Below are positions 32,102-49,908 of a stretch of 64,000 bases of DNA, piece by piece (within the stretch, counting starts at the first letter, position 1; each line of letters begins with the position of its first letter). This DNA comes from Ginsengibacter hankyongi (GTDB taxonomy: Bacteria > Bacteroidota > Bacteroidia > Chitinophagales > Chitinophagaceae). The stretch lies in assembly GCF_008710285.1 (NCBI RefSeq), contig NZ_VYQF01000001.1, positions 2,117,501-2,181,500 of the forward strand, read 5' to 3'. The position numbers and the translations under genes were made by a program. The notes beneath the pieces were generated by a model, which saw nothing but the letters and a program-made list of their open reading frames with translations, was not told where the DNA came from and searched no databases.

Positions 32102-33727
32102 TCAATAATCACTGGCAGGCTTAAAATCCTTTTTCAACAACCAGCCTTTGATGGCCCGGCCTTTATCGTCGGTAAAAACTGCGTAGCGGAATTCGTCTGT
32201 TTCACCGGATAAGGTAAGCGTGGCGTCGCCGGGAGTTAAGTAAATGGCAGTCCGCCTGAATTTATCAGGCGCATCATAAAAATAGGCGGTATTGAGGATG
32301 GTAAATTTATCCCCCGTATAAACTTTATCTCCGCCAGATGTAGAATCCGGAACAGGCGCCAATTTTTTCACGGGCATTTGGCTTGTCGCCAGTGTTCGCG
32401 TATTTGAATTCTTTTTTAATTTTTCCCGGACTTTTTTTATGGGCTTATCGGTAACGGCAGTGATTGAATCTGTAGTCTCGGGTAATTTATTGTCCGTCTG
32501 CGCAACCGTATCAGTTGGAATTGGCTTACCCGGTTTATAAAACGTATCGTATGCCGCAAAGCCAGCCAGGCCAAGTGCAGCGATTAGCACCAGGAAAAAC
32601 AAGGATTTTGATACGCCTCGCCGTTTCGTTGCACTGTAGTATTGGGCTTCAATTAACTCTTTGTCCCGGGTATCCACCAGGTATTGCAGGTCTTTCAGCA
32701 ATTCCTCTTTTTCTGCCAGACGTGTTTGAAGGGTAAGTATTTCCTTTTTCAGCGCGGATTCATCTGCCTGGATGGTAGCCTTTTCTCCCAGAGAAAGATT
32801 AATGCCTTTTTTTCTTTCGTCACCAATGGTTCCCAAATGAATGAATTCCTGCAACTCTCCGCCGTTCTTAAATCGTTTTGCGGGATCCTTTTCAAGGCAT
32901 TTATAGATCATGCTCAAGAGCCACACGGGAATCTCCATTTCCCTTTGCTGTTTCTCGTTGCTCCAATAACCGGGTAATGCCTGGCGACGTAGTGAAATCA
33001 CATCCGGCGGCAGTGTTTCCATGTGTGCCACCATTACTGTATTGCGTGCCATTTCACTTTTATTCATTAAAGGAAATGGAACATTGCCCGTCAGCAATTC
33101 AAACAATACAATTCCAAAACTATACACATCTGTTTCAGTAAGTGTTTCACCGGAGCTTTGTTCCGGTGCCATGAACTCAATAGCTCCGGCATAGCGAATG
33201 CTGGTGCGCCTCTGTTCATCGGACATTACCGATAAACCAAAATCCAGCAGGATGTAATTGCCGGTATGCTGGTTAAATTTTACGTTGTTGCTCTTTATAT
33301 CGCCGTGTTTAATATTGGCCCGGTGGCAATGCGCCAAAGCATTTGCTAACTGGTCTGCTACCTTAATAGTTTCTTTAACTGTAAAAACGGGATCATAAGG
33401 AGGCTTCAGCAAATCCCCAAGGTCAGGGCCTTCAATATATTCCATTTCAATATAAGGTAGGTTACCGGAACTTGTTATGCCGGAAGCGATGATGCTTACC
33501 ACGTTTGGATTGGGAATTTCGTTTACCTTCTTTAATTTCTGCACTTCATTCTGGAAAGAAATGAAATGCTTGTCATCGTCGCTTTCACTGGCGATGGGGG
33601 TTGGTAAAATTTTTATCGCGGTTATAATTTCGCCGGTCTTCCTGGCTTTATAAACGGAGCCCTGTCCTCCTGATTTTAATGCACCGAGGTTTTCCAATCC
33701 TTCTGTTATCGTAAAAATCTTTGCCAT
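32102..33727 (-). CDS. Transmembrane Ser/Thr protein kinase with SH3-like C-terminal domain
   Basis: 541 residues. The kinase domain (about 10-295) has a glycine loop (LKSGGQGSVYKA), the ATP-contacting Lys (AIKIL, K39), the catalytic loop HGDIKSNN (about 139-146), the metal-binding DFG (about 160) and an APE motif (MAPEQSSGE). The catalytic loop has Gly where most kinases have Arg (HRD), so control by activation-loop phosphorylation may differ. A coiled coil (about 315-360) precedes one membrane helix (SLFFLVLIAALGLAGFAAYD, about 373-392), a Pro/Lys linker and an extracytoplasmic SH3-like domain (about 470-537) ending in KGWLLKKDFK. The SH3 domain may sense cell-wall material, in place of the PASTA repeats of PknB. 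It is the last gene of the six-gene operon and starts two bases after the FHA gene. Confidence 0.9.
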   Translation of the reverse strand: MAKIFTITEGLENLGALKSGGQGSVYKARKTGEIITAIKILPTPIASESDDDKHFISFQNEVQKLKKVNEIPNPNVVSIIASGITSSGNLPYIEMEYIEGPDLGDLLKPPYDPVFTVKETIKVADQLANALAHCHRANIKHGDIKSNNVKFNQHTGNYILLDFGLSVMSDEQRRTSIRYAGAIEFMAPEQSSGETLTETDVYSFGIVLFELLTGNVPFPLMNKSEMARNTVMVAHMETLPPDVISLRRQALPGYWSNEKQQREMEIPVWLLSMIYKCLEKDPAKRFKNGGELQEFIHLGTIGDERKKGINLSLGEKATIQADESALKKEILTLQTRLAEKEELLKDLQYLVDTRDKELIEAQYYSATKRRGVSKSLFFLVLIAALGLAGFAAYDTFYKPGKPIPTDTVAQTDNKLPETTDSITAVTDKPIKKVREKLKKNSNTRTLATSQMPVKKLAPVPDSTSGGDKVYTGDKFTILNTAYFYDAPDKFRRTAIYLTPGDATLTLSGETDEFRYAVFTDDKGRAIKGWLLKKDFKPASDY

Positions 33728-33729
33728 AA

Positions 33730-34497
33730 TTAGTCTTCTCCTGAATAAGTGAATTCGAGTACTGCCATGTCCCCCAAAATTACCTGGTCTCCTTCCTGCA
33801 GGCGATGGCCTACTTCAATGGCCTGCATTTTTATTAAAACACCTTCCGGGGTGCGAACCTTCATTTTATTGTTGGGCGGTATGCCGCCCTCGTCGGCAAA
33901 AACCAAAAATGAATTACTGTCTGCCTCCCATTCAATATGCGCATGCTGCCGGCTGACAGATCGATTCCTTTCGGTGGGCATAAAGGCAATTACGTTTTTT
34001 CTCACATAATTTCCCGTAGCCTGCACCCTTGCTTCCCGGCCGATATTGATCCTTCCCGCACCTGAATCAATTAGATAGGTTTCTTTTTCTGCTTCACCGT
34101 TCAGCACTTTTATAAACGCCCTGTTCTTTTTATTACTCAGCCCTGATCTTTTTGTTGATATAAAAATTGCTGCATCAATTTCACCAATGAGCTCAGCCTG
34201 TGGCGGGAAAAGATTGGTAAAGGCAACTTCAAATTTGAAAGAGGTCGATAAGGTAATGGCATAATCATCGGCAATTTTTTGTACCTCTTCTACTTTAAAC
34301 TTCCCGGGAGTACTGGAAAATACCGCTGCTTCGTACAAATGCTTTTCTGCCTCGCTGCAATTAATAAAAAGATAAACGCCCATTATATTACCCCCTTCAC
34401 CACCCTGGGCTCTTTGCAATTTCTCCTTGATGGTTTGCAATAAAATATGCCGTATACCTTTTACGTCGTGCGGCCGTTCTTTAAATAAATTAAACAT
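33730..34497 (-). CDS. FHA-domain protein
   Basis: 255 residues. The C-terminal FHA domain (about 145-250) has INIGRE (G153, R154), SVSRQH (S182, R183, H185), then NNKMKV and a closing LQEGDQVILGDMAVLEFTY, so the phosphothreonine-binding residues are in place. The N-terminal about 115 residues (KGIRHILLQTIKEKLQRAQG...) form a separate domain with alternating strands and helices, whose layout recalls the N-terminal part of actinobacterial FhaA, but this needs a profile search. No membrane segment. It should act as a cytoplasmic adaptor that binds phosphorylated partners of the neighbouring kinase. It lies 23 bases after the SEDS-PBP gene and 2 bases before the kinase gene. Confidence 0.87.
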   Translation of the reverse strand: MFNLFKERPHDVKGIRHILLQTIKEKLQRAQGGEGGNIMGVYLFINCSEAEKHLYEAAVFSSTPGKFKVEEVQKIADDYAITLSTSFKFEVAFTNLFPPQAELIGEIDAAIFISTKRSGLSNKKNRAFIKVLNGEAEKETYLIDSGAGRINIGREARVQATGNYVRKNVIAFMPTERNRSVSRQHAHIEWEADSNSFLVFADEGGIPPNNKMKVRTPEGVLIKMQAIEVGHRLQEGDQVILGDMAVLEFTYSGED

Positions 34498-34520
34498 ATC
34501 AGTAAGTAGTTTTAAATAAT

Positions 34521-37500
34521 TTAATTGCCACTCTTCGCCGGGTGACTCATGGTTAATTCGTTCTTAGTGTCTTCCAGTGTTTGCACCGGCTTCTTCAACG
34601 GGTCAAAGCTTTTTATATAATTACTTTCACGTAATAATGGAATGATGTGTGCGCCTGCTAATGCCACTGCATCACTGGAGCCCCTGGTCCCCTCAATCCG
34701 TATGCAAACTACCACGTGTCCGTTGCCGTTAGCATTTGGCGCAAAGAAAACATACCAGCCATCATTGATACTTTCACCTTTTACGATTCTTTCGGGAGTA
34801 CCTGTTTTGCCGGCTACCAACATTCCAAACTTGCTTTTTTGGGGAGCACTTTGTTCTTTCATATAAGTTGACAAATACTGAGCATAAATCGAATCTTTTG
34901 CTATCGGCACACCGGGCTTAGGGGTTACTGCTTTTCCATTTATATTCAATGTGTACCTGTTAGGTATCATTATACCATTATTGGCAATTCCTGATGCGAT
35001 ACGTGCAACAGAAGCGGGCGTTGCTACCAGTTCTCCCTGCCCCCACGCCATGCCTGAAATACCGAGGGCTCTTGTGCGGCGTATATCTTCCGGGTTATAG
35101 CGGTTAAGGCTTTTAAATTCTGTTTCTCTCCAAAGCGTTCTCCACTTTTCCTGTTGCGATGTATTGTTGTTATCATTTTCAAAATAATAACCGCCAACCC
35201 CGTGCAGGAACATCCCGGATTGCATATACAAGGTTGCCATATCTTCCTGCAACTGTTCCTGGTTGGCCAGGCGTATAAAGAATGAGTTATTTGATTTTAT
35301 AATGCCCTTTTCAATAGTGATTAATCCAGCCTCATCTGGTTCTGGGCCGGTAACCCTTATCAGGTCTTTTGGATACACCCTAATCGTTTTTTTTGCCGCT
35401 GCCGCCCCCAGCTTATTAAAGGCTGCCATTGCGGTGACCAGTTTTGCCGTTGATCCGGGTTGCGTAGCATGAGTGAATCCAATATCAGTATTCACATTCC
35501 ACCCAGGTAATTTATTGATGTCATTTTCAGAAAGGCTTAGCCGGTCCCAATCGTTCACAGGGGGTAATGGCCAGCAGGCAGATGCCAGCACATCGCCGGT
35601 GTTATCTTCCATTATTACTACAGATACTCTCTTTTTATTGACGCTATCATCCTGCTGTAATGCTAGTTCAATCTTTGTTTGCAAGGCAGCATCCATTGCA
35701 AGAGTTACATCCCTGTTGCGCTTTTTAAACTCTGCCACTTCATTGCTGTTAATGCCTGCAGTCAACAGGTCGGAAAGAGCGGAGAAATCCCTTTTAGTTA
35801 CGGTCATTTCTGTTCCGGTGACCGGTAAAAATTTTTCCTCGCGATAACGGTCGGCGCTAACGGCATATTTTACAACCGGCGCAGGAAAGCCCCTGAGTTC
35901 AGCCGCATGAGCGTACTCTGCAAAATATCCATTGTTTCCGCCGGAGAAAATGCCGGTGTTGGCATCGCCTGTCCAGAAAAACATGTATTCGCCAAAGGGG
36001 TAATATCGTGCCTGCCTTTTATAGGAAAGAGATTCTATATTTTCGGCGGGTATTCCCAGGGCCAACAATGAATCTTTTTGATCCTGCACCAGTCTAGGAT
36101 CACTCGAGGCGAGTAAACGTCCATCCCTGTCGTAGACATTTCCTGCCTGCAGTCTGTTCATTAAAATGCTTATTCTGGGATTATAACTATACATCCGGGT
36201 GCCGCTGCGGTCAGCCACCAGTGCTGGTTCTACAATCCACTTCTTTTTATTGAGGGTATAACCAGACACATTTACGATTAGCAGCAAAATGGCTACACAA
36301 GCTGCCAGCAGGGCCGGTACCAGGTTTTTATCCTGTCGTTGGGCTATATATTTTACCTGGGCCTGCGATCCGCTCAAACGGGATACGCTCAACAAAAAGC
36401 CGGCCGCGATCATACTGCATAACAATGATGTGCCTCCATAGCTGGTAAATGGCAACGCCACGCCCGATAGGGGAAGCGCTCCGGTAGAACCACCTGCTAT
36501 CAACAAAAACTGCACAAAAATGCCGATGCCTGCGCCGGCACACAGATAAAATAAAAAGGGTGGCCCTGCCTGCCGGCCGATAATAATGGAACGATGCAGC
36601 AACACCAGGAATAAAATAAAGACACACGTGATACCGGCCCATCCGAATTCTTCACCAATAGCAGGAAGAATCATATCTGTATGGGCTTCAGGAATGGTCC
36701 TGGCAAAGCCTTCGCCTGCGCCTTGCCCCGTAATACCCCCGGTGGAAATAGCCCAGATACCATTGGCTACCTGGTCTCCCCCGTACACCTGGTTGTTCCA
36801 CGGATCTGACCAAATGGCCTTCCTGTCTACCAGCCTGTGTATAGGGCCAGGGATTATCTTAGCCAACACGGGGATCTGATCCAGCAATAAAAATCCGCTT
36901 ACTACCACCAGCGCCATTACTGCTGATTCGCTTAGTCTCTTTTTTGAAAGTAGCATATACAAGGCAAGCGCCGCCACAGTAACGCCGGTTGCGATCCACA
37001 CATTTTTAAAGACCCAGGTAGCAATAGCATACAAAATCATGGCTGCAACAACCTGCATAAAATCTCCACGGGAAAATGAAAAGAGTATAATGAATGTGAA
37101 GCAGCAAATGATCGCCGGGCCAAGATCTCCTATTACCAGGAATAACAAAATGGTGGCAACAATAGCAATCAAAGCAAATACAAAAAATGACAATCTTTTA
37201 TTAAATGACGGGTATTCTGAAATAAACTTCTCGTTGGCAGCGAAAAAACCACCCAGAAAAAGGATGACCATGTATTTTACAATCTCGCTTGGCTGAAACC
37301 CGAAAAGATTTACTTTAACCCCACTTCCTTCCGGGCCGGTACCAAATAAGATGGTGAGACCCAATAAGCCCATTGCTGCCAGCGCCCAGGGCCAGCCGTT
37401 AGCCGCCTTCCTTTCGTTCTTAAAAATAAACAGCCGGAACAAGCCCGAATCGGGAGTAAACTTTTTCAGGTTCATAAACTGGAACGCAAGTATGGCCGCC

Positions 37501-38657
37501 ATCCCGATGCAGAAATAAATAAAGGTGCTTTTCACCAGGAAGCGATCCCGCAAAGGATCCTGCAAACTGAACAAGGTTATAAAAGAAAGACCCGTCAGTA
37601 TCATGATGACCGGCAGGAGCAATTGATCGGGGCCGGGTGAACGGATTGAAAAGATAAGGTGCAGCAAAAGGAAAGAGGCAAAGAATGTTACCACGATGAT
37701 CCGGAACCAGTCGGTTACGTCCGGTGGTGTCCTTACTATAAACGCTTTTTCTTTTTTGAGTGTGTTGAAATCTTTTGCTGAGAAAAGTGTCATCATGTGA
37801 GGGGACTGAACAAAATTAAAAGTTGCATTGCCCTGTAGTTTTTCAGTTCCACGGCTGCGTCCAAACTCGTAACCGGGATGCAGCGGAAGTATTTCATAAG
37901 ATTTGTTTGCAGGCAAGCCAGAAAAAATATATTTACCGGAAGCATCGGTACGGGCGTAGGCATTAAACGAAAGCAACTGCAGGTTTTTGGCTGAGTCGCG
38001 GGTGAATATTTTTCTTATGCCGTTTTTAAATTGTATGATATTTTTTTCGTCTTGATCCTGATTAGCCATATTGCTACTATCCTGTGGTACCAACAATCTC
38101 AACCTGAGTAGGACGCCGGAAGCAGGCTGGCCATCCTGGTTTCTAACCGTGCCGGAAATATTACCTGTTCCTAAATTCACATTCGTTTGTGCGGGAACAT
38201 TCAATGGATGCTTTCGTTCTTTTTCAAAAGACAGGGAATCGGATTGGGAAAATCCCAACAGGTCTCTTGATAACTCCACCCGTCTTTTGAACGATTGTCC
38301 GCCTTTTAAAAATGCTTCATCAGCATTAACAAAATACGGCTTCTTATTTAGCGTACCGATATTGTCAATGACAGAGCCAGGTTCTTTTTCGGCGGCCACT
38401 GTTGTAGCAATGAATGCAATGTCTTTTGGGTCTTCAAAATACATCCCCTTTTTTAATACCGCGGTCATGGCTTCACCTGGCTTATCGCCATTCAGGTTAA
38501 TCATAGTGCCATTTTCCAGGCGGGCATTTACTTCGTCAAAATCGCGTTGCAACACAGAAAACAATTTCCAGAAAAGCAGGGCCATAATGATACTGATAAG
38601 CACCAGGCAAATGCGCTCTGTTTTCCTGTTCCTAAACCATGTACCGGAATTTGACAT
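34521..38657 (-). CDS. SEDS glycosyltransferase (RodA/FtsW) - class B penicillin-binding protein fusion
   Basis: 1378 residues. After a first helix (ICLVLISIIMALLFWKLFSV, about 16-36) comes an extracytoplasmic part with a carboxypeptidase-regulatory-like domain (GNISGTVRNQDGQPASGVLL...YARTDASGKYIFSGL). Then a multi-helix SEDS domain (about 320-780) shows FQPSEIVKY, GDLGPAII, the essential-Asp loop EAHTDMILPAIGEEFGWAG (about 650-670) and LPFTSYGGTSLL. One further helix leads into a PBP domain (about 800-1350) with NRLQAGNVYDRDG and all three transpeptidase motifs: SxxK as GSTAK (about 1068), SNN (about 1120) and KTG (about 1283). One chain thus holds both glycan polymerase and cross-linking activity, usually split between RodA and PBP2 or FtsW and FtsI. 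It lies between PP2C and FHA genes in the operon. Confidence 0.93.
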   Translation of the reverse strand: MSNSGTWFRNRKTERICLVLISIIMALLFWKLFSVLQRDFDEVNARLENGTMINLNGDKPGEAMTAVLKKGMYFEDPKDIAFIATTVAAEKEPGSVIDNIGTLNKKPYFVNADEAFLKGGQSFKRRVELSRDLLGFSQSDSLSFEKERKHPLNVPAQTNVNLGTGNISGTVRNQDGQPASGVLLRLRLLVPQDSSNMANQDQDEKNIIQFKNGIRKIFTRDSAKNLQLLSFNAYARTDASGKYIFSGLPANKSYEILPLHPGYEFGRSRGTEKLQGNATFNFVQSPHMMTLFSAKDFNTLKKEKAFIVRTPPDVTDWFRIIVVTFFASFLLLHLIFSIRSPGPDQLLLPVIMILTGLSFITLFSLQDPLRDRFLVKSTFIYFCIGMAAILAFQFMNLKKFTPDSGLFRLFIFKNERKAANGWPWALAAMGLLGLTILFGTGPEGSGVKVNLFGFQPSEIVKYMVILFLGGFFAANEKFISEYPSFNKRLSFFVFALIAIVATILLFLVIGDLGPAIICCFTFIILFSFSRGDFMQVVAAMILYAIATWVFKNVWIATGVTVAALALYMLLSKKRLSESAVMALVVVSGFLLLDQIPVLAKIIPGPIHRLVDRKAIWSDPWNNQVYGGDQVANGIWAISTGGITGQGAGEGFARTIPEAHTDMILPAIGEEFGWAGITCVFILFLVLLHRSIIIGRQAGPPFLFYLCAGAGIGIFVQFLLIAGGSTGALPLSGVALPFTSYGGTSLLCSMIAAGFLLSVSRLSGSQAQVKYIAQRQDKNLVPALLAACVAILLLIVNVSGYTLNKKKWIVEPALVADRSGTRMYSYNPRISILMNRLQAGNVYDRDGRLLASSDPRLVQDQKDSLLALGIPAENIESLSYKRQARYYPFGEYMFFWTGDANTGIFSGGNNGYFAEYAHAAELRGFPAPVVKYAVSADRYREEKFLPVTGTEMTVTKRDFSALSDLLTAGINSNEVAEFKKRNRDVTLAMDAALQTKIELALQQDDSVNKKRVSVVIMEDNTGDVLASACWPLPPVNDWDRLSLSENDINKLPGWNVNTDIGFTHATQPGSTAKLVTAMAAFNKLGAAAAKKTIRVYPKDLIRVTGPEPDEAGLITIEKGIIKSNNSFFIRLANQEQLQEDMATLYMQSGMFLHGVGGYYFENDNNNTSQQEKWRTLWRETEFKSLNRYNPEDIRRTRALGISGMAWGQGELVATPASVARIASGIANNGIMIPNRYTLNINGKAVTPKPGVPIAKDSIYAQYLSTYMKEQSAPQKSKFGMLVAGKTGTPERIVKGESINDGWYVFFAPNANGNGHVVVCIRIEGTRGSSDAVALAGAHIIPLLRESNYIKSFDPLKKPVQTLEDTKNELTMSHPAKSGN

Positions 38658-38660
38658 TCT

Positions 38661-40052
38661 TTATTTAGGTTTTGATAGCGTGATAAATATTGAATCTTTA
38701 AATCTCCCCGATACAACCGAATCGGGAAATGATAACAAATACTGTACAGGTACACGACAATTAACAAAGCGTACATGCCTGAACGTTATATTATTCTTTT
38801 GCACAACAATACCCACGTCGAAATTTTCAAATATAAGGCTGTCGAGCACAATATGTTTGGCCGTAGTATTTATAATGAAAGCGGGCCCGTTATACGAACT
38901 ATCTGCAATAAGAACAGCTCCGTTACCCGCCAGGTAGAAACTATCTTTCTTGATTAGCAGCGGCTCATTCATGTCAGAAATTTTTTGTCCCTTTGGTAGC
39001 GTAATACTTTTTGATGAATCATTGACCTTAGCGATCAATTGAAGCAACTGTTCACTTTTTTTCTTCAGGGTTTGCGCCCGGATTTCATGGCTGACAACAG
39101 GCTTTTTATTTCTATGAAAAGCTACGGTTAAAGAAACAGCAGCCAGGCCAATGAACAGGAGAATCAAAAACGCAATAAGCCCGCGGCCTTTCTTTTTAGC
39201 AGGCTTTGTTTCAGGAACGGGTGTAGTTCCATTTGTGGAAGCAGGCGCGGCAGCTTCGTTTTTCTTTCGCTCAACGATTACAGGTTCGGGTTTTTCTTTT
39301 GGCCAATTATTATTTTCAATTAATACCGCAGTTATATTGTCGTTCCCGCCGGCCTCATTCGCAGCATCAACCAATGCCTTTGCTTTTGTAGTAAGGCTTT
39401 TTTTAGCCGTTAACACCTTCAGGATAGCTGCCGAGCTAATCATATCTGTAAGGCCATCACTGCATAAGAGAAGGAGATCTCCCGGGAGAAAAGGCGATTC
39501 GCCCGTCTCAATAAAATCCTCCGGCGTACTAATATCTTCTTCGAATCCAAGGGCTTTATTAATCTCGTTGCGTCTTGGATGACGCATGGCTTCCTCTTCT
39601 GATAGCCGTCCCGATTCTTCCAAAAAGCCCACGACAGAATGATCTTTAGATATTTTTACCAGCGAATGATCCCTTAGCAGATAGATCCTCGTATCACCTA
39701 CATGGGCATACCAGCATTTGTTATTTTTTATATCGGCCACCACGCAGGTGAGTACACAGGCCATTTGCCCATTACTGCGTTCCTCTTTCTTTCCCTCGTC
39801 TATTTTCGCATTGGCTGTTATGATGGCCTGGCGAAGTGATTCCATCACATTTTCCGAAAGTGTTTCCAGGTTCTTTATGATAACAGAACGGGCGATTCCT
39901 GCTGCTATGTCACCGCCCGTGTAACCGCCCACACCATCGATAACACCGGCTATAAGAAACCGTTTATTGGCAGTTTCCCGGGTAAAAAAAGTGTCCTCAT
40001 TTTTTTCCCGGCGTTTGCCCTTATCCGTTATGCCATAAAAATAGTCAGCCAT
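38661..40052 (-). CDS. PP2C-type Ser/Thr phosphatase with membrane helix and extracytoplasmic tail
   Basis: 463 residues from ATG at 40052; the frame opens 16 codons earlier, but that start would lie inside the preceding small gene. Residues 1-245 form a PP2C domain with DGVGGYTGG (D39), AHVGDTRIYLLR (D120), LLCSDGLTD (D199) and GGNDNIT (D238), the metal-binding acids. A Pro/Lys linker, a helix (LIAFLILLFIGLAAVSLTVA, about 292-311) and a 150-residue outer part follow. The outer part (AGNGAVLIADSSYNGPAFII, HIVLDSLIFENFDVGIVVQK) resembles coils of a right-handed beta-helix. The overall layout is like actinobacterial PstP. It should reverse the phosphorylations made by the operon's kinase. Confidence 0.9.
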   Translation of the reverse strand: MADYFYGITDKGKRREKNEDTFFTRETANKRFLIAGVIDGVGGYTGGDIAAGIARSVIIKNLETLSENVMESLRQAIITANAKIDEGKKEERSNGQMACVLTCVVADIKNNKCWYAHVGDTRIYLLRDHSLVKISKDHSVVGFLEESGRLSEEEAMRHPRRNEINKALGFEEDISTPEDFIETGESPFLPGDLLLLCSDGLTDMISSAAILKVLTAKKSLTTKAKALVDAANEAGGNDNITAVLIENNNWPKEKPEPVIVERKKNEAAAPASTNGTTPVPETKPAKKKGRGLIAFLILLFIGLAAVSLTVAFHRNKKPVVSHEIRAQTLKKKSEQLLQLIAKVNDSSKSITLPKGQKISDMNEPLLIKKDSFYLAGNGAVLIADSSYNGPAFIINTTAKHIVLDSLIFENFDVGIVVQKNNITFRHVRFVNCRVPVQYLLSFPDSVVSGRFKDSIFITLSKPK

Positions 40053-40140
40053 TTTTGTGCGTTTGCTTAATGTCAGAAAAATGAGCCACCAGTAATACAA
40101 TACTGATCACCAATAATCCTATCGCCAATAGTTTATCCAT
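40045..40140 (-). CDS. 31-residue membrane peptide between the FHA-like and PP2C genes
   Basis: ATG at 40140 follows the stop of the previous gene after one base (TAACATG). It encodes MDKLLAIGLLVISIVLLVAH followed by FSDIKQTHKNG, a single hydrophobic helix with a short polar end. Its TGA overlaps the start of the PP2C gene (ATGGCTGA), which is typical translational coupling. The tight fit on both sides argues that it is a real gene. A regulatory or assembly peptide for the membrane complex is possible. Confidence 0.65.
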   Translation of the reverse strand: MDKLLAIGLLVISIVLLVAHFSDIKQTHKNG

Positions 40141-40141
40141 G

Positions 40142-41092
40142 TTATGTTTTGAAGATGTTGATAGATACAATTCCATTCAAAACGATCTTCGAGTTCATAG
40201 GAAGATCAGTCCAGAGAGGTGAATCTTTATAGCTGTTTTTAACTTCATTTTCATTCACAATGGTTTTCTCACCAAAAGAGGCAAGGAAAAATTTATCCGT
40301 ATTCTTATCATAGCGCACAGAAAGATGTGGCGTGGACACCCATTCAGAGGGAATACGGAATACACCCGGTTGGCCCTGCTTTTCATCAATTCCGGCTACA
40401 AAAAAGGCTTCATCTTTAATTAGGTATTCCAGCTTTTTGCCGGCATATTCTTTTTCAGGGAGAGTAGCTTCCATTCGGGCAAAGTATTTAGGTTTGCTTA
40501 TATCATTTACGTCTCCCAATACCGGGCTGTCCTGCCACGGGATCTCGTAATAGCCATCACTGTAATACGTAAAGTCTTTTAATATTTCGTCTGCAATGTC
40601 AAATGTTTGAGCAATCCCTGTCTGGCGCGGAATGAAAGTAACCCGGAGATTTTCTTCTTTTTGAAGAATATTACCGGGTAACAATTTTCCGATAAAGCTC
40701 TTATCTCCTTTTTCATAATCAGGATGGGAAACAAACCGGAACACCCATTTATTAGCGGATGCGGTGACCTTTTTTCCTTTTTGCCGATACTCCTGTAAGA
40801 TCGTATAGAATGCTTTTACAGATTCTTTTATAATCAGCGAAAATATTCCCCTGTTATTGTCCATAAATTTGTTATAGTCGGGCCGGCTGAAGCAAATAAT
40901 GTATTCATGATAAAATATTACCCGGTCTGCAAATGAAAGCTCCGCAACAGATTCCCGGAATTTTTCTATGATATATTTATATACAAGGTCTGGGGTCATA
41001 GACGCGGTTTCGGTAAAACCAGTTTCCTTTTTCAGGAACCAGCTCTGTACGCCGGAACGTTGCCAAAATGTGGGTTTTGTAGTTGCTTCCAT
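40142..41092 (-). CDS. Protein with FHA-like C-terminus, first gene of the kinase operon
   Basis: 316 residues, soluble. The last 70 residues (STPHLSVRYDKNTDKFFLAS, KTIVNENEV, LPMNSKIVLNGIVSINIF) follow the strand pattern of an FHA domain, although the usual GR and SRxH phosphothreonine contacts are not clear, so ligand binding is uncertain. An N-terminal domain (about 35-140: IIEKFRESVAELSFADRVIF, then YHEYIICFSRPDYNKF) could be of the same type as the N-terminus of the FHA protein at 33730-34497. It heads the operon; the 560 bases upstream hold no gene. Confidence 0.65.
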   Translation of the reverse strand: MEATTKPTFWQRSGVQSWFLKKETGFTETASMTPDLVYKYIIEKFRESVAELSFADRVIFYHEYIICFSRPDYNKFMDNNRGIFSLIIKESVKAFYTILQEYRQKGKKVTASANKWVFRFVSHPDYEKGDKSFIGKLLPGNILQKEENLRVTFIPRQTGIAQTFDIADEILKDFTYYSDGYYEIPWQDSPVLGDVNDISKPKYFARMEATLPEKEYAGKKLEYLIKDEAFFVAGIDEKQGQPGVFRIPSEWVSTPHLSVRYDKNTDKFFLASFGEKTIVNENEVKNSYKDSPLWTDLPMNSKIVLNGIVSINIFKT

Positions 41093-41652
41093 GGGCTACT
41101 CTTTAGTTTTAACTGGTGGTAAATAGATTGTATGACTCAAAAAAATGCATGCCGCTACTTACATCATTCACAACATTTCCTTAAATTTTTTTTGAAGTAA
41201 AGTTTAGTGCCCGGCGTTGTAGTTTAAAAGTAAAAACTGTCTCTTATAGGCAGAAAGCGATTTTTGATTTGATTAACCTGTTACGGTATTTATTGAAACA
41301 CCACTTCATATATTGATGCAATGAAATTAACAGAAGATTTCTTAAAGCATTGCCAAAATTGGCAGTTAATTTAGTGAAGGAAAACTTAAAAGGGTTGCGT
41401 TGAGCCTTGAGGATATAATGATATCCGCGGTACATTCACTCTAATAGTGTGAACCAAGACAAGAATAATAAAAGAAATAGCTACAGTAAGTTAGCGCATT
41501 AGTGTTTCAGCTAATATGAAGTTGGCTAATAAAGCAAAGAATTGAGCAACAACTATTATATCAAATTCGATTAACCCTTCCCGTTACTCCAGGTGTATTA
41601 TAACCGGAATGATGGAGAAGGGTCTTTTACATCGTTTAGTCTGCACCGGTAG
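41093..41652. other. 560-base gene-free interval upstream of the kinase operon
   Basis: AT-rich DNA between the start of the operon (41092) and the end of the YciI-like gene (41653). I find no gene or repeat. ACCCTTC at 41575 and GAAGGGT at 41625 could pair around a 40-base loop but lack a T-run. The operon promoter should lie within the first 150 bases, but I see no consensus match. Confidence 0.4.
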
Positions 41653-42204
41653 TTACATTCCCGGCATTTCCATGGTCTCGTGAATTTCAATAGTTGCCGC
41701 CGGATGCCAGCCGGAAATATGGGGATGATCTTCAAGAAGGCTCATCACTTCATCCCAATCTTCTGCTGAGAGTAAAGAATACCCTGCCACTTCCTTTGTG
41801 CTTGTCGTGGGTTCGCCTTCTGCGCCGATTTGCCTGCCGTTCATGAGTGGTGCACCCATGTCAAGGAGATTTGTGCCACACCTTTCGGCCCATGCTTGCC
41901 ACAGGGCCATACCTGCTGCCTGGTCTTCAAGGGATAAATTGGCGTTTTGTGCCAGGGCGTCCAGGGGCGCATGGTAAATGACGAGGAATGTTTTGCCCGT
42001 TTGTTTTGCGGGGCTTGTTGCCGATTTTTTAGCTACTTTTTTAATCGCTTTTTTAGCGACTCCTTTCGATGCTTTTTTGGGGGCAGTTTTTGTTGTTTTA
42101 TTTACTGCCTTTACTACCGTCTTTTTTGCTGATGCTTTAGCTGTACCTTTCACAGGGGCACGTTTGGCGGCTTTAGGAGAAGTTTTTTTTAATGACTTTG
42201 CCAT
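41653..42204 (-). CDS. YciI-like domain protein with Lys/Ala-rich H1-like N-terminal tail
   Basis: 183 residues. Residues 1-70 are almost entirely Lys, Ala, Thr, Ser, Pro and Val (KKTSPKAAKRAPVKGTAKAS, repeated AKK units), like bacterial histone-H1-type tails. Residues about 72-183 form a YciI/YCII-like ferredoxin-fold domain (KTFLVIYHAPLDALAQNANL, AGYSLLSAEDWDEVMSLLED HPHISGWHPAATIEI). The tail should bind DNA or RNA; the domain is a putative enzyme or ligand binder. The tail may instead be a low-complexity linker. No signal peptide. Confidence 0.78.
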   Translation of the reverse strand: MAKSLKKTSPKAAKRAPVKGTAKASAKKTVVKAVNKTTKTAPKKASKGVAKKAIKKVAKKSATSPAKQTGKTFLVIYHAPLDALAQNANLSLEDQAAGMALWQAWAERCGTNLLDMGAPLMNGRQIGAEGEPTTSTKEVAGYSLLSAEDWDEVMSLLEDHPHISGWHPAATIEIHETMEMPGM

Positions 42205-42385
42205 GATGAATAATTTAATTTGAGGAAAATTGAGATGACATAATAAATTTACAGCCTTTCAGGCTGTGATGAAAAAAAATTTATATCCGGGGACACGACT
42301 ACCTGATTACCCGGGAATCCGTGCTGTAAAACCGGTTAAATTGATGCAGTAAATACAGAATTAAGTTTTGGGAATAGATTATCTT

Positions 42386-42407
42386 TTGCACAGGGTACCC
42401 TGTGCAA
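42386..42407. repeat. 22-base perfect palindrome
   Basis: TTGCACAGGG TACCCTGTGCAA is entirely self-complementary. It lies between the 3' end of dxs (42499) and the 5' end of the YciI-like gene (42204), so it could be an operator for the latter or a hairpin ending dxs transcription; no T-run follows. Confidence 0.55.
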
Positions 42408-42498
42408 TTCAAAAAATTATCTTATGTACTTATGAAGGCAGTTCCTGCAGATTGAAACGAGCAGAAAAGATGCGGCAGAGCGAGTAAATAAACTTCTT

Positions 42499-44424
42499 TT
42501 AGCTGATAAGTTTATTCACTTCAATTTTAGCCATATCCCTTATAGTTTCGGCAATATGATTTGCGTCTATCCCAATCTCGTTATATAACTCCTTAAGAGT
42601 ACCATGTTCGATTATTGTATCAGGTATTCCTAAAATTTTTACTGATGCATTATAATTATGTTCTGCCATAAATTCTAAAATTGCAGAACCGAAACCGCCT
42701 TTAACTGTTCCATCTTCAACGGTAATTATTTTAGCATAATTCTTAAAAACCTCGTGAAGCATTTTCTCATCTAAAGGTTTTACAAAACGCATATCGTAGT
42801 GGGCGGGATTTATTCCTTCCGATTTTACTTCTCTTATGGCAGCTGCAGCAAAATTTCCGGGATGCCCGTAAGAAAGAATTGCTATTTCATCACCCTCTTT
42901 TAATTTCCTTCCTGTTCCAATTGTAATTTCTTTCATTTCGGTTTTCCATTCTGCCTTTACACCTTCGCCCCGTGGATAACGAATTACAAAAGGATTTTTT
43001 ATTTTTTCCAATTGTGACGTGTACATCAAATCACGGAGTTCGCTTTCATTCATCGGTGCACTTACAATCATATTGGGAATGCAGCGCATGTATGCAATAT
43101 CATAAGCACCGTGGTGTGTTGCACCATCTTCCCCTACAAGCCCTGCCCTGTCTAAACAAAACACAACCGGTAAATTTTGTATAGCAACATCATGCACCAC
43201 CTGGTCATAACCACGTTGCATAAACGAAGAATATATGTTACAGAAAACTTTCATTCCCTGCGTTGCAAGGCCTGCACTTAACGTAACTGCATGCTGCTCG
43301 CAAATGCCTACATCAAAAGCACGGTTGGGCATTTGTTCCATCATATATTTTAATGAGCTTCCGCTGGGCATAGCAGGTGTAACGCCCATAATTTTGTCAT
43401 TCTTTTTAGCAAGCTCAATAATGGTATAGCCAAATACATCCTGGTATTTCGGAGGTTGTGGAAGATCAAATGTTTTCTTATAAATTTCACCGGTTATTTT
43501 ATCAAATAATCCGGGCGCATGCCATTTGGTTTGATCTTTTTCAGCCAGTTCGTAGCCCTTGCCTTTTACTGTTTTTATATGCAACAATTTGGGGCCGGGT
43601 ATGTCTTTAATATCTTTTAAAGTATCTACCAGCTTTGTAATGTTATGCCCGTCAATCGGGCCGAAGTATCGTAAATTAAGCGCTTCAAAAAGATTACTGC
43701 TTTTACTAACCATACCCTTCAATGCAGCTTCCATTTTTGAAACAATCTTACGTGAGAGCCTTTCGCCGGGCAGTTTACCCAGGGCTTTCCAGAAATCATC
43801 TCGAAGTTTATTGTAAGAATGAGATGTTGTGATATCTGTAAGATATTCCTTTAAAGCACCAACGTTCGGGTCGATGCTCATGCAATTATCATTTAAAATA
43901 ATAAGGATGTTACTCTTTTCGATACCGGCATGGTTCAGTGCTTCAAAAGCCATACCCGCTGTCATTGCGCCGTCCCCGATAATGGCAACATGTTGCCTGT
44001 CAACTTCGCCTTTATAGTGGGACGCCATGGCCATGCCGAGTGCCGCAGAAATAGAAGTGGATGAATGCCCTACGCCAAATGCATCGTATTCGCTTTCTGC
44101 TCTCTTGGGGAAGCCACTTATACCTTTGTATTTCCTGTTGGTTTTAAAATTGTCTCTTCTTCCTGTAAGAATTTTATGCCCGTAAGCCTGGTGGCCAACG
44201 TCCCAAACCAATTGGTCGTAAGGAGTATTAAATATATAATGAAGCGCTACAGTTAGTTCTACGACACCCAGGCTTGCCCCGAAGTGACCACCATGCACGC
44301 TTACCACATCTACAATATACTGGCGTAATTCATCACATACCTCATGCAACTGCTCTTTGCTGAGCTTTTTTAAATCTGCGGGGCTGTCAATATTTGCTAA
44401 TAATTTGCCTGGTTTAATCTCCAT
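42499..44424 (-). CDS. dxs: 1-deoxy-D-xylulose-5-phosphate synthase
   Basis: 641 residues from ATG at 44424. An upstream TTG at 44445 is rejected because it lies within the -7 promoter box. The product has the DXS features: the His in GHQAYGHKILTGRR, the thiamine-diphosphate site GDGAMTAGMAFEALNHAG with ILNDNCMSI, CEQHAV with the catalytic Glu, and LDRAGLVGEDGATHHG. The enzyme joins pyruvate and glyceraldehyde-3-phosphate in the first step of the non-mevalonate isoprenoid route. It probably stands alone, with an M23 peptidase gene 165 bases upstream. Confidence 0.97.
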   Translation of the reverse strand: MEIKPGKLLANIDSPADLKKLSKEQLHEVCDELRQYIVDVVSVHGGHFGASLGVVELTVALHYIFNTPYDQLVWDVGHQAYGHKILTGRRDNFKTNRKYKGISGFPKRAESEYDAFGVGHSSTSISAALGMAMASHYKGEVDRQHVAIIGDGAMTAGMAFEALNHAGIEKSNILIILNDNCMSIDPNVGALKEYLTDITTSHSYNKLRDDFWKALGKLPGERLSRKIVSKMEAALKGMVSKSSNLFEALNLRYFGPIDGHNITKLVDTLKDIKDIPGPKLLHIKTVKGKGYELAEKDQTKWHAPGLFDKITGEIYKKTFDLPQPPKYQDVFGYTIIELAKKNDKIMGVTPAMPSGSSLKYMMEQMPNRAFDVGICEQHAVTLSAGLATQGMKVFCNIYSSFMQRGYDQVVHDVAIQNLPVVFCLDRAGLVGEDGATHHGAYDIAYMRCIPNMIVSAPMNESELRDLMYTSQLEKIKNPFVIRYPRGEGVKAEWKTEMKEITIGTGRKLKEGDEIAILSYGHPGNFAAAAIREVKSEGINPAHYDMRFVKPLDEKMLHEVFKNYAKIITVEDGTVKGGFGSAILEFMAEHNYNASVKILGIPDTIIEHGTLKELYNEIGIDANHIAETIRDMAKIEVNKLIS

Positions 44425-44442
44425 GCTCAATTTTTTACTTTG

Positions 44443-44450
44443 CAAAGTTA
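44443..44450 (-). promoter_or_regulatory. -7 box of the dxs promoter
   Basis: On the minus strand the sequence is TAACTTTG, a full match to TAnnTTTG, 18 bases before the dxs ATG. No -33 TTTG at the right distance is seen. It fixes the dxs start at 44424. Confidence 0.55.
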
Positions 44451-44589
44451 TGTTTTTGATTTGGTATTGGTTTATAAACAGTTTTTTAGGAAATAGGTTT
44501 GAAAACTGTGCATACAGGATTCAGATACTCAGTCATATACGAAAAAAAAGAGAAGATAGTATGCAGAACGGCAATAGAATTAAACATTA

Positions 44590-45318
44590 TTACATTTGAA
44601 ATCGATTCATATTTAAAATAAAATCCGGATCAGGGCAATTCGCTAAATATTTCTCTCGTTCACTGAATTTACAAACACCGGGATAATCTCCCTTATAATT
44701 TCCCAAGTCTTCTATAACCTGGAAATGCAGGTGCGGCGGCCAATGACCGTTCTCTGCGGGCTCGCCAAAATGCGCAAATAGTTGTCCGCCTTTTATAAAA
44801 TCACCTTCTTTTATATTTTGTAAATCTGGAAGACTTAAATGTCCATATAGCGTAAAAAACTTTACCTCTTTCGATTCATGCTGTAAAATTATGGTAGCTC
44901 CATAATCACCAAAATTATTATTGAATGCAAAGCTGTGCACAGTTCCGTCAAGAGGCGCAAAAATTGGGGTACCTGCTGCTCCCCAAATGTCAATGCCGAG
45001 ATGAAGCCTCCGCGGTTCTTCAATTTCTGAAAAGTGATTATTGACATTATTATCAAACAAAGGACTTCTTGAATATAAATTCCTTAATTCATTATACCCA
45101 CCGGCTCCAAATTTTGCATTTGCTTTTTGCAAAAGACCATTTATGAAGTCGCAGAATTTTTCAGTATCAGAAAGATCAATTTCTTTTAAAGTTGCATTGT
45201 TTTCGGTAAAATCAAAAAGTATTAGTTTTTCTTTTGCAGGATTGAATGGTACAACCGGGTGAAATTGTTCTGAGAACTTTTTTAAAAGCTCAAGCAAATT
45301 ATGCTCTCTCACGGGCAT
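44590..45318 (-). CDS. M23 family metallopeptidase-like protein
   Basis: 242 residues. The C-terminal two thirds match the M23/LytM domain: HLGIDIWGAAGTPIFAPLDG with the first zinc His and Asp, LYGHLSL, and PHLHFQV with the last two His residues. Such enzymes cut glycyl or peptidoglycan cross-bridges, but this protein has no signal peptide or membrane segment, so it may act in the cytoplasm or have another substrate. It follows leuS by 29 bases on the same strand and is probably co-transcribed with it. Confidence 0.88.
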   Translation of the reverse strand: MPVREHNLLELLKKFSEQFHPVVPFNPAKEKLILFDFTENNATLKEIDLSDTEKFCDFINGLLQKANAKFGAGGYNELRNLYSRSPLFDNNVNNHFSEIEEPRRLHLGIDIWGAAGTPIFAPLDGTVHSFAFNNNFGDYGATIILQHESKEVKFFTLYGHLSLPDLQNIKEGDFIKGGQLFAHFGEPAENGHWPPHLHFQVIEDLGNYKGDYPGVCKFSEREKYLANCPDPDFILNMNRFQM

Positions 45319-45347
45319 TATTAAATTTTAAAAATGATTACCTGGTA

Positions 45348-48332
45348 TCAGACAACAATATTTATCATTTTATTTTTTACGAAAATTATTTTTTTAGGCT
45401 GTTTGCCTTCCAGCCACTTTTGCACTATCTCGTTATTTAAAGCAATTTTTTCCACTTCATCCTGTGAAGCATCTAATGAAATTGTAATGGTTGTCCGCAT
45501 TTTTCCGTTAATAGAAACCGGATATTCTTTTTCAGATTCAATTAAATATTTTGTTTCCAGCCTTGGATAAGCCGCATCAAGAATGGTGGTTTTATTATTT
45601 AATGAATGATATAATTCTTCAGAAATATGCGGCGCATAAGGGGTTAGTAAAATAAGCAATGGTTCAAGTATTTCTTTCTTGTGACATTTTAAATCTATGA
45701 GTTCATTTACACAAACCATGAAGGCACTAACGGCAGTGTTATACGAAAAGCGCTCTGTATCCTCTTCTATCTTTTTTATGGTTTTATGCAACACTTTTAA
45801 TTCGGCATCTGTAGCCTTTTCCTCATTCCAAACTTTACCCTTGATATCATCGTAAAATAAACGCCATAATTTTTTTAAGAAACGATGGACGCCTTCAATG
45901 CCTTTGGTATCCCAGGGTTTGCTGGCTTCCACTGGACCAAGAAACATTTCATACATTCGGAAAGTGTCGGCGCCATATTTATCTATTAAATCATTTGGGT
46001 TAACCGTGTTGTATTTTGATTTTGACATTTTTTCTATTTCCACGTCGCATATATAATTACCTACTGGAAGCATCTCTTTCCAATCCCCGAAAGGAATAGT
46101 AGTGTTAACTATACCATTTTCACATATAAAAATTGATTCTTTGTACTCTGGTTTCCAATTTCTAAATGCATCAATATCTAATTCAACTCCATTAACAATA
46201 TTTACATCAACGTGAATTGGAACATGATTAGCAAAAATTGTAGTTAATGACCATTCTGGATATTTATATCTTGCTATCTCTTGTAATATACCCGATATTA
46301 TTAAAAAAAGTTTGCCTGCATCATTTGTTGAGCCTCCTAGTGTATCAACAATCGACTTAGATAAAAAAATTGGAGGAAGTTCAGGTGTAATATTTTCCAT
46401 TTTATCCACTGATTCAATACCAACTAAAATGGATGGTAAGATTCTATAGACAAACCTGCTGCTTCCCTGTATCATCCCTTGATTTACCAACTTCTTAAAC
46501 GGTTCATCAAAACCAATAAATCCTAAATCATACAAGACTTTCGTCCACATGCGGCTGTACAACAAATGTCCAACTGCATGTTCGGTTCCTCCGATGTATA
46601 CATCCACCTGGTTCCAGTAATCAGTGGCTTTTCTGTTAGCAAATTCTTTATCGTTATGAGGATCCATATAACGGAGAAAGTACCACGAAGAGCCTGCGTA
46701 GCCGGGCATGGTGTTGGTTTCTCTTCTTTCGCCATTATCAAGATTAACCCATTCAGGAATATTAGCTAACGGTCCTTCACCTTCCGGGCCGGGTTTATAA
46801 TTTTCTACATGAGGTAATTCAACTGGTAAATCTTTTTCTTCCAGCGGGTAGGCTACACCGTCACGATATACAATCGGGAATGGTTCGCCCCAATACCGCT
46901 GGCGGCTAAAACCGGCATCACGCATTTTATAATTTACTTTTCTATTACCAATTCCTTCTTCTTCAATCCGGTTCAGCACTACGTCAATAGCGTCTTTCAT
47001 TTTTATTCCATTCAAAAAACCGGAATTGGTAAGCGAAGCTTCTTTGGTAGGATTGGCTTCCTGGCCATTAAAATATTCACCAATAATATTCGTAATGGGA
47101 ATATTAAAATGTGTTGCAAAATCAAAATCACGTTGGTCGCCGCAAGGCACAGCCATAATAGCGCCGGTTCCATAACCTGCCAAAACATATTCTGCGATCC
47201 AGATAGGAATTTTCCTTCCGTCAAAAGGATTGATAGCATAAGCGCCGGTGAAGCATCCTGTAATTTGTTTTACTTCAGCCATACGTTCCCTGTCGCTCCT
47301 GCTTTTTACATAAGTAAGATATTCGTCTATGGCTGACCGTTGTTCTTCGGTTGTAATTAAATTTACCAGTTCATGCTCAGGAGCCAACACCATAAAATCT
47401 ACCCCGAAGATGGTATCAGGGCGGGTGGTGTAAACTTTAAGCGTCAATTGTGAATCGGCAATAGCAAAATCCATCTCAGCCCCCTCGCTTTTACCAATCC
47501 AATTGCGCTGCATTTCTTTCATAGCATCAGAAAACTCAACCGTTTCCAGGCCTTCAAGTAATCTTTCTGCATAATCCGTAATGCGTAAATACCATTGGCG
47601 CATTTTCTTTTTCACAACAGGATGACCGCCGCGTTCACTCACTCCGTTTATTACTTCATCATTTGCTAAAACAGTACCCAAAGCCTCACACCAGTTTACT
47701 TCTCCAAAGGCTGAAAATGCAAGCCGGTAATCCATTAATAATTCCTGTTTATGTTCACCGGAAAAACTATTCCATTCGTCAGCAGAAAAATAATTTTGCG
47801 TTTGTCGTTGACCGTTATCTTCCTTATTTCCCTGTTGCTCAAAAATTTTTATAAGGTCTTCAATTCTTCTTGCCTTGTTGTGTTTTCTGTCGTACCAGCT
47901 ATTAAAAATTTCAAGAAATATCCATTGTGTCCATTTATAATATTTGGGATCGCTGGTTCGTACCTCACGGCTCCAGTCGAAACAAAAACCAATATTATCG
48001 AGCTGCTGCCTGAAAGTCTCAATATTTTTTTCCGTAGTTACGGCGGGATGCTGCCCGGTTTCCAAAGCATATTGCTCGGCCGGCAAACCGAAGCTATCAT
48101 ACCCCATAGGATGCAGCACGTTAAAGCCTTTCAATCTTTTATAACGTGCATAAATATCGCTGGCAATATAACCCAGCGGATGCCCTACATGCAATCCTGC
48201 ACCACTTGGGTAAGGAAACATATCCAACACATAAAACTTTGGATTATCCGAAGTATTACTCACTTTATATACACCTGATTCCTTCCAGGCTTTTTGCCAG
48301 TTTTTTTCTATCTCTCTGAAATTGTATTCCAT
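45348..48332 (-). CDS. leuS: Leucyl-tRNA synthetase
   Basis: 994 residues. The HIGH-type motif is HVGH (residues 48-51) and KMSKS is at about 768-772, with the editing domain between (about 240-450) and the C-terminal anticodon-binding helices. The enzyme charges tRNA-Leu. The segment at residues about 632-705, between SRFVYR and PIHVDVNIV, is longer than I expect for this family and hydrophobic (KLFLIISGILQEIARYKYPE). It is the first gene of a leuS-M23 pair. Confidence 0.97.
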   Translation of the reverse strand: MEYNFREIEKNWQKAWKESGVYKVSNTSDNPKFYVLDMFPYPSGAGLHVGHPLGYIASDIYARYKRLKGFNVLHPMGYDSFGLPAEQYALETGQHPAVTTEKNIETFRQQLDNIGFCFDWSREVRTSDPKYYKWTQWIFLEIFNSWYDRKHNKARRIEDLIKIFEQQGNKEDNGQRQTQNYFSADEWNSFSGEHKQELLMDYRLAFSAFGEVNWCEALGTVLANDEVINGVSERGGHPVVKKKMRQWYLRITDYAERLLEGLETVEFSDAMKEMQRNWIGKSEGAEMDFAIADSQLTLKVYTTRPDTIFGVDFMVLAPEHELVNLITTEEQRSAIDEYLTYVKSRSDRERMAEVKQITGCFTGAYAINPFDGRKIPIWIAEYVLAGYGTGAIMAVPCGDQRDFDFATHFNIPITNIIGEYFNGQEANPTKEASLTNSGFLNGIKMKDAIDVVLNRIEEEGIGNRKVNYKMRDAGFSRQRYWGEPFPIVYRDGVAYPLEEKDLPVELPHVENYKPGPEGEGPLANIPEWVNLDNGERRETNTMPGYAGSSWYFLRYMDPHNDKEFANRKATDYWNQVDVYIGGTEHAVGHLLYSRMWTKVLYDLGFIGFDEPFKKLVNQGMIQGSSRFVYRILPSILVGIESVDKMENITPELPPIFLSKSIVDTLGGSTNDAGKLFLIISGILQEIARYKYPEWSLTTIFANHVPIHVDVNIVNGVELDIDAFRNWKPEYKESIFICENGIVNTTIPFGDWKEMLPVGNYICDVEIEKMSKSKYNTVNPNDLIDKYGADTFRMYEMFLGPVEASKPWDTKGIEGVHRFLKKLWRLFYDDIKGKVWNEEKATDAELKVLHKTIKKIEEDTERFSYNTAVSAFMVCVNELIDLKCHKKEILEPLLILLTPYAPHISEELYHSLNNKTTILDAAYPRLETKYLIESEKEYPVSINGKMRTTITISLDASQDEVEKIALNNEIVQKWLEGKQPKKIIFVKNKMINIVV

Positions 48333-48614
48333 TCTTTATAGTTCAATCTTAAATTTATATTTTACTCCAGGACAAATATTAACTTATAAATCTGCTTCAG
48401 AACAAAAAATGCTTACTAAGAAAATTATCCGAAGCCGTCACTTATTTATTTGTGAAGGAAATGTTATTCATTAACTGATTATTCCCTGTAATGCTATATG
48501 TAATTTACATTAGCACAATAGGTATATGTACAAAAATACTAAACTGTTTAAAAACATTTAATTTTGTCAAACTACCTGGTTATGAGTTTGTATTGTTAAA
48601 CCATCATTCAACTT

Positions 48615-49493: not shown

Positions 49494-49544
49494 TTGATTA
49501 ACATTTTTATTTAATGCATTAATATTGCAAACTCAAATTTCAAA

Positions 49545-49835: not shown

Positions 49836-49855
49836 TTTGATTATAAAATAACGTG

Positions 49856-49883
49856 AGGCGGTGATATTATCATCGCCTTTTTT
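49856..49883 (+). terminator. Rho-independent terminator after DUF3098
   Basis: GGCGGTGAT, a 3-base loop and ATCATCGCC form a 9-bp stem (one G-T pair) followed by six T. It should separate or weaken read-through from ftsX-DUF3098 into uppP. Confidence 0.78.
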
Positions 49884-49908
49884 GTTTATTTGCTTTTAAT
49901 CTTTCAAA

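Follow-up and report, generated by a model that had tools for sequence, protein, structure and literature searches.

A minus-strand operon in Ginsengibacter hankyongi with a fused SEDS::PBP protein, probably a Bacteroidota variant of the actinobacterial fhaA-pknB locus

We analysed a stretch of 64,000 nucleotides of the Ginsengibacter hankyongi genome (contig NZ_VYQF01000001.1, positions 2,117,501 to 2,181,500; the whole stretch is called the window) that carries a six-gene operon encoding two forkhead-associated (FHA) proteins, a 31-residue membrane peptide, a PP2C phosphatase, a Ser/Thr kinase and a fusion of a shape, elongation, division and sporulation (SEDS) protein to a class B penicillin-binding protein (PBP). 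On sequence evidence, this module is probably an accessory, phospho-regulated peptidoglycan synthase and a Bacteroidota variant of the FhaA-FhaB-PstP-RodA-PbpA-Pkn locus, with shared ancestry at least in SEDS and FhaA. Control of SEDS-PBP synthases by Hanks-type kinases and FHA proteins is known mainly from actinobacteria, where growth and division are linked to this locus. Other Bacteroidota genomes have the cluster too, in a patchy pattern; literature searches of titles and abstracts, with subscription papers outside their scope, found no description of the module in this phylum. The actinobacterial kinase/FHA-synthase logic appears here as a patchy, self-contained unit in organisms (Mucilaginibacter and Pedobacter, for example) whose genomes encode ordinary SEDS-PBP pairs as well. 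The synthase, its adaptors, kinase and phosphatase are probably open to deletion, transfer or reconstitution without loss of viability.

Gene content and active sites

A preliminary description made from the letters alone reported six closely packed minus-strand genes, and the open reading frame (ORF) coordinates bear out both their order and their spacing, with intergenic gaps in transcription order of 1, -8 (an overlap), 3, 23 and 2 bases.

40142..41092, minus strand: FHA1, 316 aa, FhaA-like adaptor with an N-terminal domain (about 30-190) and a C-terminal FHA fold (205-316)
40045..40140, minus strand: membrane peptide of 31 aa with a single helix, at the site taken by FhaB in actinobacteria, recognised as a micro-ORF and by conservation across loci
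38661..40052, minus strand: PP2C phosphatase, 463 aa from a likely ATG at 40052, with one predicted membrane helix followed by a C-terminal extension
34521..38657, minus strand: SEDS::PBP fusion, 1378 aa, with an N-terminal helix, a CarboxypepD_reg-like stretch, SEDS at about 327-770 and a class B PBP transpeptidase at 1012-1323
33730..34497, minus strand: FHA2, 255 aa, with an N-terminal domain and an FHA domain with phosphothreonine-binding R154, S182 and H185
32102..33727, minus strand: Hanks-type Ser/Thr kinase, 541 aa, with one predicted membrane helix at about 375-393 and HGD instead of HRD

The enzymatic assignments of the preliminary description are confirmed by Pfam, which places FTSW_RODA_SPOVE (E 4e-45) and Transpeptidase (E 4e-21) in a single frame and identifies the kinase (Pkinase, E 2e-36) and the phosphatase (PP2C_2, E 5e-16); a membrane helix is predicted for 132 of 134 module kinases and 85 of 86 PP2Cs. 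In an alignment of 96 fusions the SEDS Asp (D661 in the window) and the PBP Ser, Lys, Ser and Asn of the SxxK and SxN motifs are invariant, and the KTG Lys is present in all 95 gap-free rows, with T replaced by S in 11. The metal-binding Asp residues of the PP2C are invariant in 86/86. Among the kinases, the Lys, Asp, Asn and Glu are kept in 133/134 and the DFG Asp in all 134, with HGD in place of HRD in 127. The named relatives are the best 80 of 362 from a scan of named genomes, such that close relatives dominate the counts, and duplicates, such as L043 and L091 from a single contig, are included in the pooled synteny, peptide, neighbour and active-site counts.

The two FHA proteins differ in their pockets. 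FHA1 has no Pfam match, but the FHA-like end noted in the preliminary description is supported by its AlphaFold model (mean predicted local distance difference test, pLDDT, 78.7), in which the beta-rich end at 205-316 takes the FHA fold, by the PDB matches, most of the top 50 listed being titled FHA domains, and by a match of the family profile to the SLMAP FHA domain (E 3.6e-4). Phosphothreonine binding by FHA1 is doubtful in most members because the pocket column holds Arg in just 7/88. A PDB sequence search with the FHA1 of locus L055 alone returned no matches. FHA2 lies just under the Pfam FHA cut-off (E 0.0023; 18.8 bits against 20.7) and its profile finds only weak FHA matches in a PDB sequence search (best E 0.12), but the FHA fold is present in its AlphaFold model (pLDDT 90.4), and the R, S and H of the pocket are invariant in 93/93. 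In two loci (L055:11435-12805 and L056:10479-11753) FHA2 starts with a Swt1-like HEPN domain (PF18731, E 1.5e-25 and 7e-22), an odd partner for FHA in a wall module.

The preliminary description also held that the operon is separate from the canonical rodA/pbp2 and ftsW/ftsI, and this proved correct. The genome has three SEDS genes, of which the fusion is one; a RodA with an adjacent PBP2 lies at C1:1738589-1741308, above the NCBIfam cut-offs, and an FtsW-like SEDS and an FtsI/SpoVD-like PBP, for which these are the best models though below cut-off, lie about 4.3 kb apart at C1:1271822-1278718. A SEDS-family search of 39 relatives gave frames of two recurrent sizes, about 430 and 455 aa, with the fusion as an extra; some drafts show just one. 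The window PP2C is the only PP2C_2 (PF13672) match of the genome, PP2C_2 being the one PP2C family searched genome-wide, and a single other Pkinase match was recorded, at C1:1046946-1047632 (L158) inside a 1699-aa frame. Fusion architecture varies among relatives: a same-genus fusion (L177:4688-9481) has 1597 aa, about 220 residues more than that of the window, and overlapping SEDS matches, perhaps the sign of an internal repeat, and L056:6262-10416 encodes a triple PP2C::SEDS::PBP fusion as one protein of 1384 aa.

Around the operon the sequence offers few regulatory clues. Its G+C of 0.43-0.47 (2-kb steps, 32-40 kb) exceeds the 0.37-0.41 of the near flanks, a contrast that tells little because values of 0.40-0.45 also occur in the first 14 kb of the window. 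A scan counted 11 promoter-like sites against 20.3 expected and 14 terminator-like sites against 10.6 expected. At 41653-42204, also on the minus strand, a 183-aa protein has what reads by eye as a Lys/Ala-rich, histone-like N-terminus.

Distribution, gene order and the membrane peptide

The fusion has matches at E 1e-20 in 97 of 395 Bacteroidota genomes, 15 of which have a fused frame of more than 1200 aa; the others have shorter frames, mostly of canonical SEDS size. Within the family 22/195 genomes match at E 1e-60, and within the genus a SEDS frame of more than 1000 aa is found in 5/20 genomes, our own included, with one more (G583) in pieces. Carriers among the best 80 of the 362 relatives include Ferruginibacter, Segetibacter, Flavisolibacter, Cnuella, Mucilaginibacter and Pedobacter, and a plasmid of Spirosoma oryzicola carries a full set in the order FHA1-peptide-PP2C-kinase-kinase-SEDS::PBP-FHA2. 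This patchiness, together with the plasmid copy, suggests that the module moves laterally. The trees disagree on lateral transfer: SEDS trees place the window with L043 and L048 of another family (87/82, 95/89 and 92/91), whereas the transpeptidase tree joins it to L046, a member of its own family (82/76).

Gene order is strongly conserved in relatives, a point on which the preliminary description had staked its reading. All 74 of the 80 named loci that have FHA1, PP2C, SEDS::PBP and FHA2 carry them in the same order and on a single strand, including L080, with 4.2 kb between SEDS::PBP and FHA2, and L069, in which the SEDS::PBP frame is in two pieces; the remaining six are interrupted by contig ends. 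A first set of 15 loci behaves likewise, with all four core genes in 10 and in order in every one. The kinase is the mobile member. In the 74 loci it is found at both ends (26), upstream only (17), downstream only (27) or not at all (4), it is internal in L049 and L050 of the first set, and the kinase tree indicates that kinase lineages differ between module groups. Reading the loci with two kinases as carrying orthologues of pknA and pknB is not supported: the upstream and downstream kinases are sisters in both L043 (100/99) and L048 (97/94), and these pairs look like local duplications.

We found no further member of the module, as no neighbour family occurs in more than 28 of 98 loci and the two widest have a median distance of 3-4 kb. 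Smaller neighbour families of 11-13 loci each sit close, four of them at medians of 58-253 bases. By eye, L055:3072-5342 and L056:2949-5153 are similar-sized (about 750 aa), secreted lipoprotein-like genes just upstream of FHA1.

The 31-residue peptide noted in the preliminary description is real. A single-helix micro-ORF follows FHA1 in 90/90 loci that have FHA1, the window included, and in 80 of these 90 it spans no fewer than 24 codons and has an HF-x-D-I-K-type motif. The 78 distinct sequences yield 252 pairs separated by 3-18 differences, in which the first, second and third codon positions changed 1031, 382 and 2032 times; the pooled pN/pS is 0.19. As a control, micro-ORFs were counted with a tighter window for their start, from -10 to +90 of the stop codon: they follow FHA1 in 85/88 cases, PP2C in 0/87, SEDS::PBP in 0/94, FHA2 in 0/90 and the kinase in 1/84, and random windows in divergent loci give 12/1600. 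The peptide is also retained where the PP2C is lost (L052-L054). Because of this conservation, the low pN/pS, the control counts and the persistence without PP2C, the peptide is a genuine conserved gene and not a chance ORF, and it constitutes a new candidate subunit of a wall synthase.

Ancestry, proposed mechanism and alternative readings

Several observations connect the module to the actinobacterial locus, for which our references were Nocardia farcinica (Pfam), Tsukamurella (annotated) and Nonomuraea (tblastn), with the order fhaA-fhaB-pstP-rodA-pbpA-pknA-pknB. A 31-row SEDS tree has a 100/99 branch that separates 12 fusions and the three actinobacterial operon RodA proteins from canonical RodA, FtsW and SpoVE. 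With a SEDS from the clostridial Monoglobus added, fusions, actinobacteria and Monoglobus again group at 100/99, whether odd rows are kept or dropped; the reduced tree omits seven long or odd rows (Rhodo_fusion, Strep_FtsWpl, Rossell_SEDS, Aceto_L148, fus_L056, Bact_L026 and fus_L057). The second connection is the FhaA_N domain, which at E 0.01 occurs in 5/395 Bacteroidota genomes, three of them above cut-off; all five are among the 15 fusion genomes, with the match beside the fusion (chance 4e-8). By Pfam at E<=1 the domain is found in 3/44 FHA1 members, above cut-off in L053 and below it in L055 and L056. A comparison of the window FHA1 family with the FhaA N-terminus by hhalign gave only a probability of 39 and E 3e-4. 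A bridging profile run against 21276 ORFs retrieved nine at E<1, each an FHA1 protein (5 seeds and 4 weak matches at E 0.2-0.9), the window FHA1 not being among them. Further FhaA_N proteins in fusion-bearing genomes lie at L178:1854-5821 and L179:7072-8373, the former with an FHA2-like protein and a PP2C and no SEDS in its 9.3-kb contig. The label actinobacterial-type given in the preliminary description, which called for trees of the single domains, holds in part: it stands for the SEDS domain, for the FhaA_N of some relatives' FHA1 and for the gene order, but it is not supported for the kinases, nor by the PP2C and transpeptidase trees.

A number of points weigh against this shared origin. 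PASTA domains were found neither in the window kinase nor in the ten relatives' kinases scanned, and the kinases do not group with PknA or PknB, nor the PP2Cs with actinobacterial PP2Cs, in trees that both have long branches. In the transpeptidase tree the fusions join PbpA and Monoglobus at only 37/35, which leaves them without a firm place. The SEDS tree itself has few outgroup phyla and long branches, and support for fusions and actinobacteria alone is 91/88, falling to 48/28 in the reduced set of 27 rows. Pfam does not detect FhaA_N in the window FHA1 or elsewhere in its genome, and an hhalign comparison of FhaA with the relatives that bear FhaA_N aligned the FHA domain alone. FHA2 is extra, with no obvious counterpart in its slot of the actinobacterial locus. 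The link between the peptide and FhaB is a putative one, of position and topology. In the reference loci FhaB, like the peptide, starts with one helix; in the module the FhaB slot holds the helix without an FHA domain in 90/90 loci, and a search with the peptide profile ranked FhaB of Nocardia 2nd, Tsukamurella 9th and Nonomuraea 47th among 77 domain hits, the best FhaB scoring 2.7 bits and the top hit being an unrelated RodA stretch. Finally, the module is not always whole: no kinase was detected in about 20 kb in 5 of the 15 first-set loci (L052-L056), an adjacent PP2C is missing in L052-L054, and L057, a divergent second copy in genome G131, has the fusion and only a distant kinase-like frame.

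If the module is indeed an accessory phospho-regulated synthase, as we consider probable, it might work as follows. The fused SEDS polymerase and class B PBP would polymerise and crosslink glycan from one polypeptide, with the small membrane peptide as a subunit of the complex. The extracytoplasmic tail of the kinase would sense the envelope, and the kinase would phosphorylate threonines in cytoplasmic parts of the module, on which FHA2, with its intact pocket, could dock; FHA1, whose pocket is degenerate here, would act mainly as a scaffold, and the PP2C would reset the switch. The output would presumably be conditional, for example under envelope stress or during remodelling, and the module would act alongside the Rod and Fts synthases, not replace them.

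A bolder extension, which we offer tentatively and consider possible although doubtful, is that FHA-linked SEDS proteins form a third great lineage beside FtsW and RodA, with an ancestral unit of FhaA, membrane-anchored FhaB, PP2C, SEDS, PBP and kinase. In Bacteroidota the unit would have become portable, fused and phospho-switched, with nothing left of FhaB but a transmembrane subunit of 31 residues, a microprotein in a SEDS-PBP synthase.

The module might alternatively serve stress or antibiotic tolerance as a kinase-switched backup SEDS-PBP of low beta-lactam affinity, by analogy with the enterococcal IreK/IreP response. Its accessory nature, patchy spread and plasmid copy would fit, as would the PP2C, for which Stp1/IreP is the nearest model (205 bits, under its cut-off of 230). 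We nevertheless regard this as unlikely. The fusion scores at most 24 bits on the PBP2a and PBP4(5) models, matches that carry no signal because the ordinary PBP2 of the genome scores far higher (109-141 bits), and a PBP2a/PBP4(5)-like affinity was dropped for this reason; the absence of any neighbour family in more than 28/98 loci also argues against it.

Convergence, in which SEDS, PBP, FHA, PP2C and Hanks kinase came together independently and long branches produced the SEDS grouping as an artefact, would account for the failure of module kinases, PP2Cs and transpeptidases to group with actinobacterial ones and for the varying kinase lineages, and a SEDS::PBP fusion did arise independently in Rhodococcus (see below). 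Against it stand the 100/99 branch uniting fusions, actinobacteria and Monoglobus with or without the odd rows (despite the lower values for fusions and actinobacteria alone), the confinement of FhaA_N, rare in Bacteroidota, to fusion genomes, and the collinear gene order, and we judge it improbable. The idea that this is the ordinary elongation machinery, merely fused, has the shared RodA-PBP2 enzymatic pair in its favour, but we reject it as extremely improbable in view of the separate RodA/PBP2 and FtsW-like/FtsI-like genes, the restriction of the long SEDS frame to 5/20 genus genomes and the placement of the fusion SEDS outside canonical RodA.

Comparison with known systems

A kinase-phosphatase-FHA circuit of the PpkA/PppA/Fha kind, as in type VI secretion systems, was also considered and is not supported: three secretion-linked PP2Cs group together (98/95) and the module PP2Cs separately (100/99), and inspection by eye of ORFs of at least 150 aa at 1-32000 and 40000-50000 revealed no tss gene, with no dedicated tss family search run. 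The fusion contains the same enzyme pair and the same catalytic residues as RodA-PBP2 and FtsW-FtsI of E. coli, which differ in belonging to another SEDS lineage and in having no FHA, PP2C or kinase gene annotated alongside. A passage of one study describes a functional E. coli RodA-PBP2 fusion in which RodA D262A abolishes polymerisation (PMC6207328). Our natural fusion fixes the SEDS:PBP stoichiometry, which is useful for structural work.

Natural SEDS-PBP fusions are mentioned elsewhere as existing, in a passage that cites the Rhodococcus RHA1 genome (ref. 18 of PMC10449877). On Rhodococcus plasmid pRWAY03 (L144) a SEDS and a class B PBP likewise share one chain, but no kinase, PP2C or FHA gene is annotated within 6 kb. 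A common origin with the module is rejected, as the SEDS of this fusion sides with the canonical proteins and its PBP lies close to PBP2 of E. coli; because these placements differ from those of the module, the Rhodococcus fusion arose independently. In Monoglobus, FHA, SEDS and PBP genes are adjacent (L165:3266-6251), and the 100/99 branch puts the SEDS together with the fusions. The genes are unfused, and the 11-kb stretch holds no kinase or PP2C, a PASTA kinase and a Stp-type PP2C being on another record of the strain. The Monoglobus PBP groups with actinobacterial PbpA (100/98).

The closest parallel remains the actinobacterial locus. Passages in PMC6554272 (see also PMC11898655) describe a seven-gene cluster in which pstP, rodA, pbpA and the PASTA kinase are linked throughout Actinobacteria; FhaA and FhaB of Corynebacterium are treated in parts of PMC3296230, and for mycobacteria a section of PMC3989709 reports PbpA as a PknB substrate and a second FHA protein, FipA, as phosphorylated by PknA, with a proposed FtsZ interaction. 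The module differs in that its SEDS and PBP are fused, with no separate PbpA-lineage PBP (PBP_dimer_2 is present in Nocardia PbpA and not in the window fusion), in a small membrane protein that has no FHA domain, and in kinases outside the PknA/PknB groups, without detected PASTA and variable in position (at either end or inside). It is also accessory, its host having a RodA and an FtsW-like gene besides. Shared ancestry is seen in part of the unit only, the transpeptidase, PP2C and kinase trees giving no such signal. The likeness lies in an FHA adaptor, a small membrane-anchored product, a one-helix PP2C, a SEDS protein, a class B PBP and a kinase in the same order as in Nocardia and Tsukamurella, with the SEDS in the same clan and the FhaA_N-plus-FHA architecture preserved in some Bacteroidota relatives.

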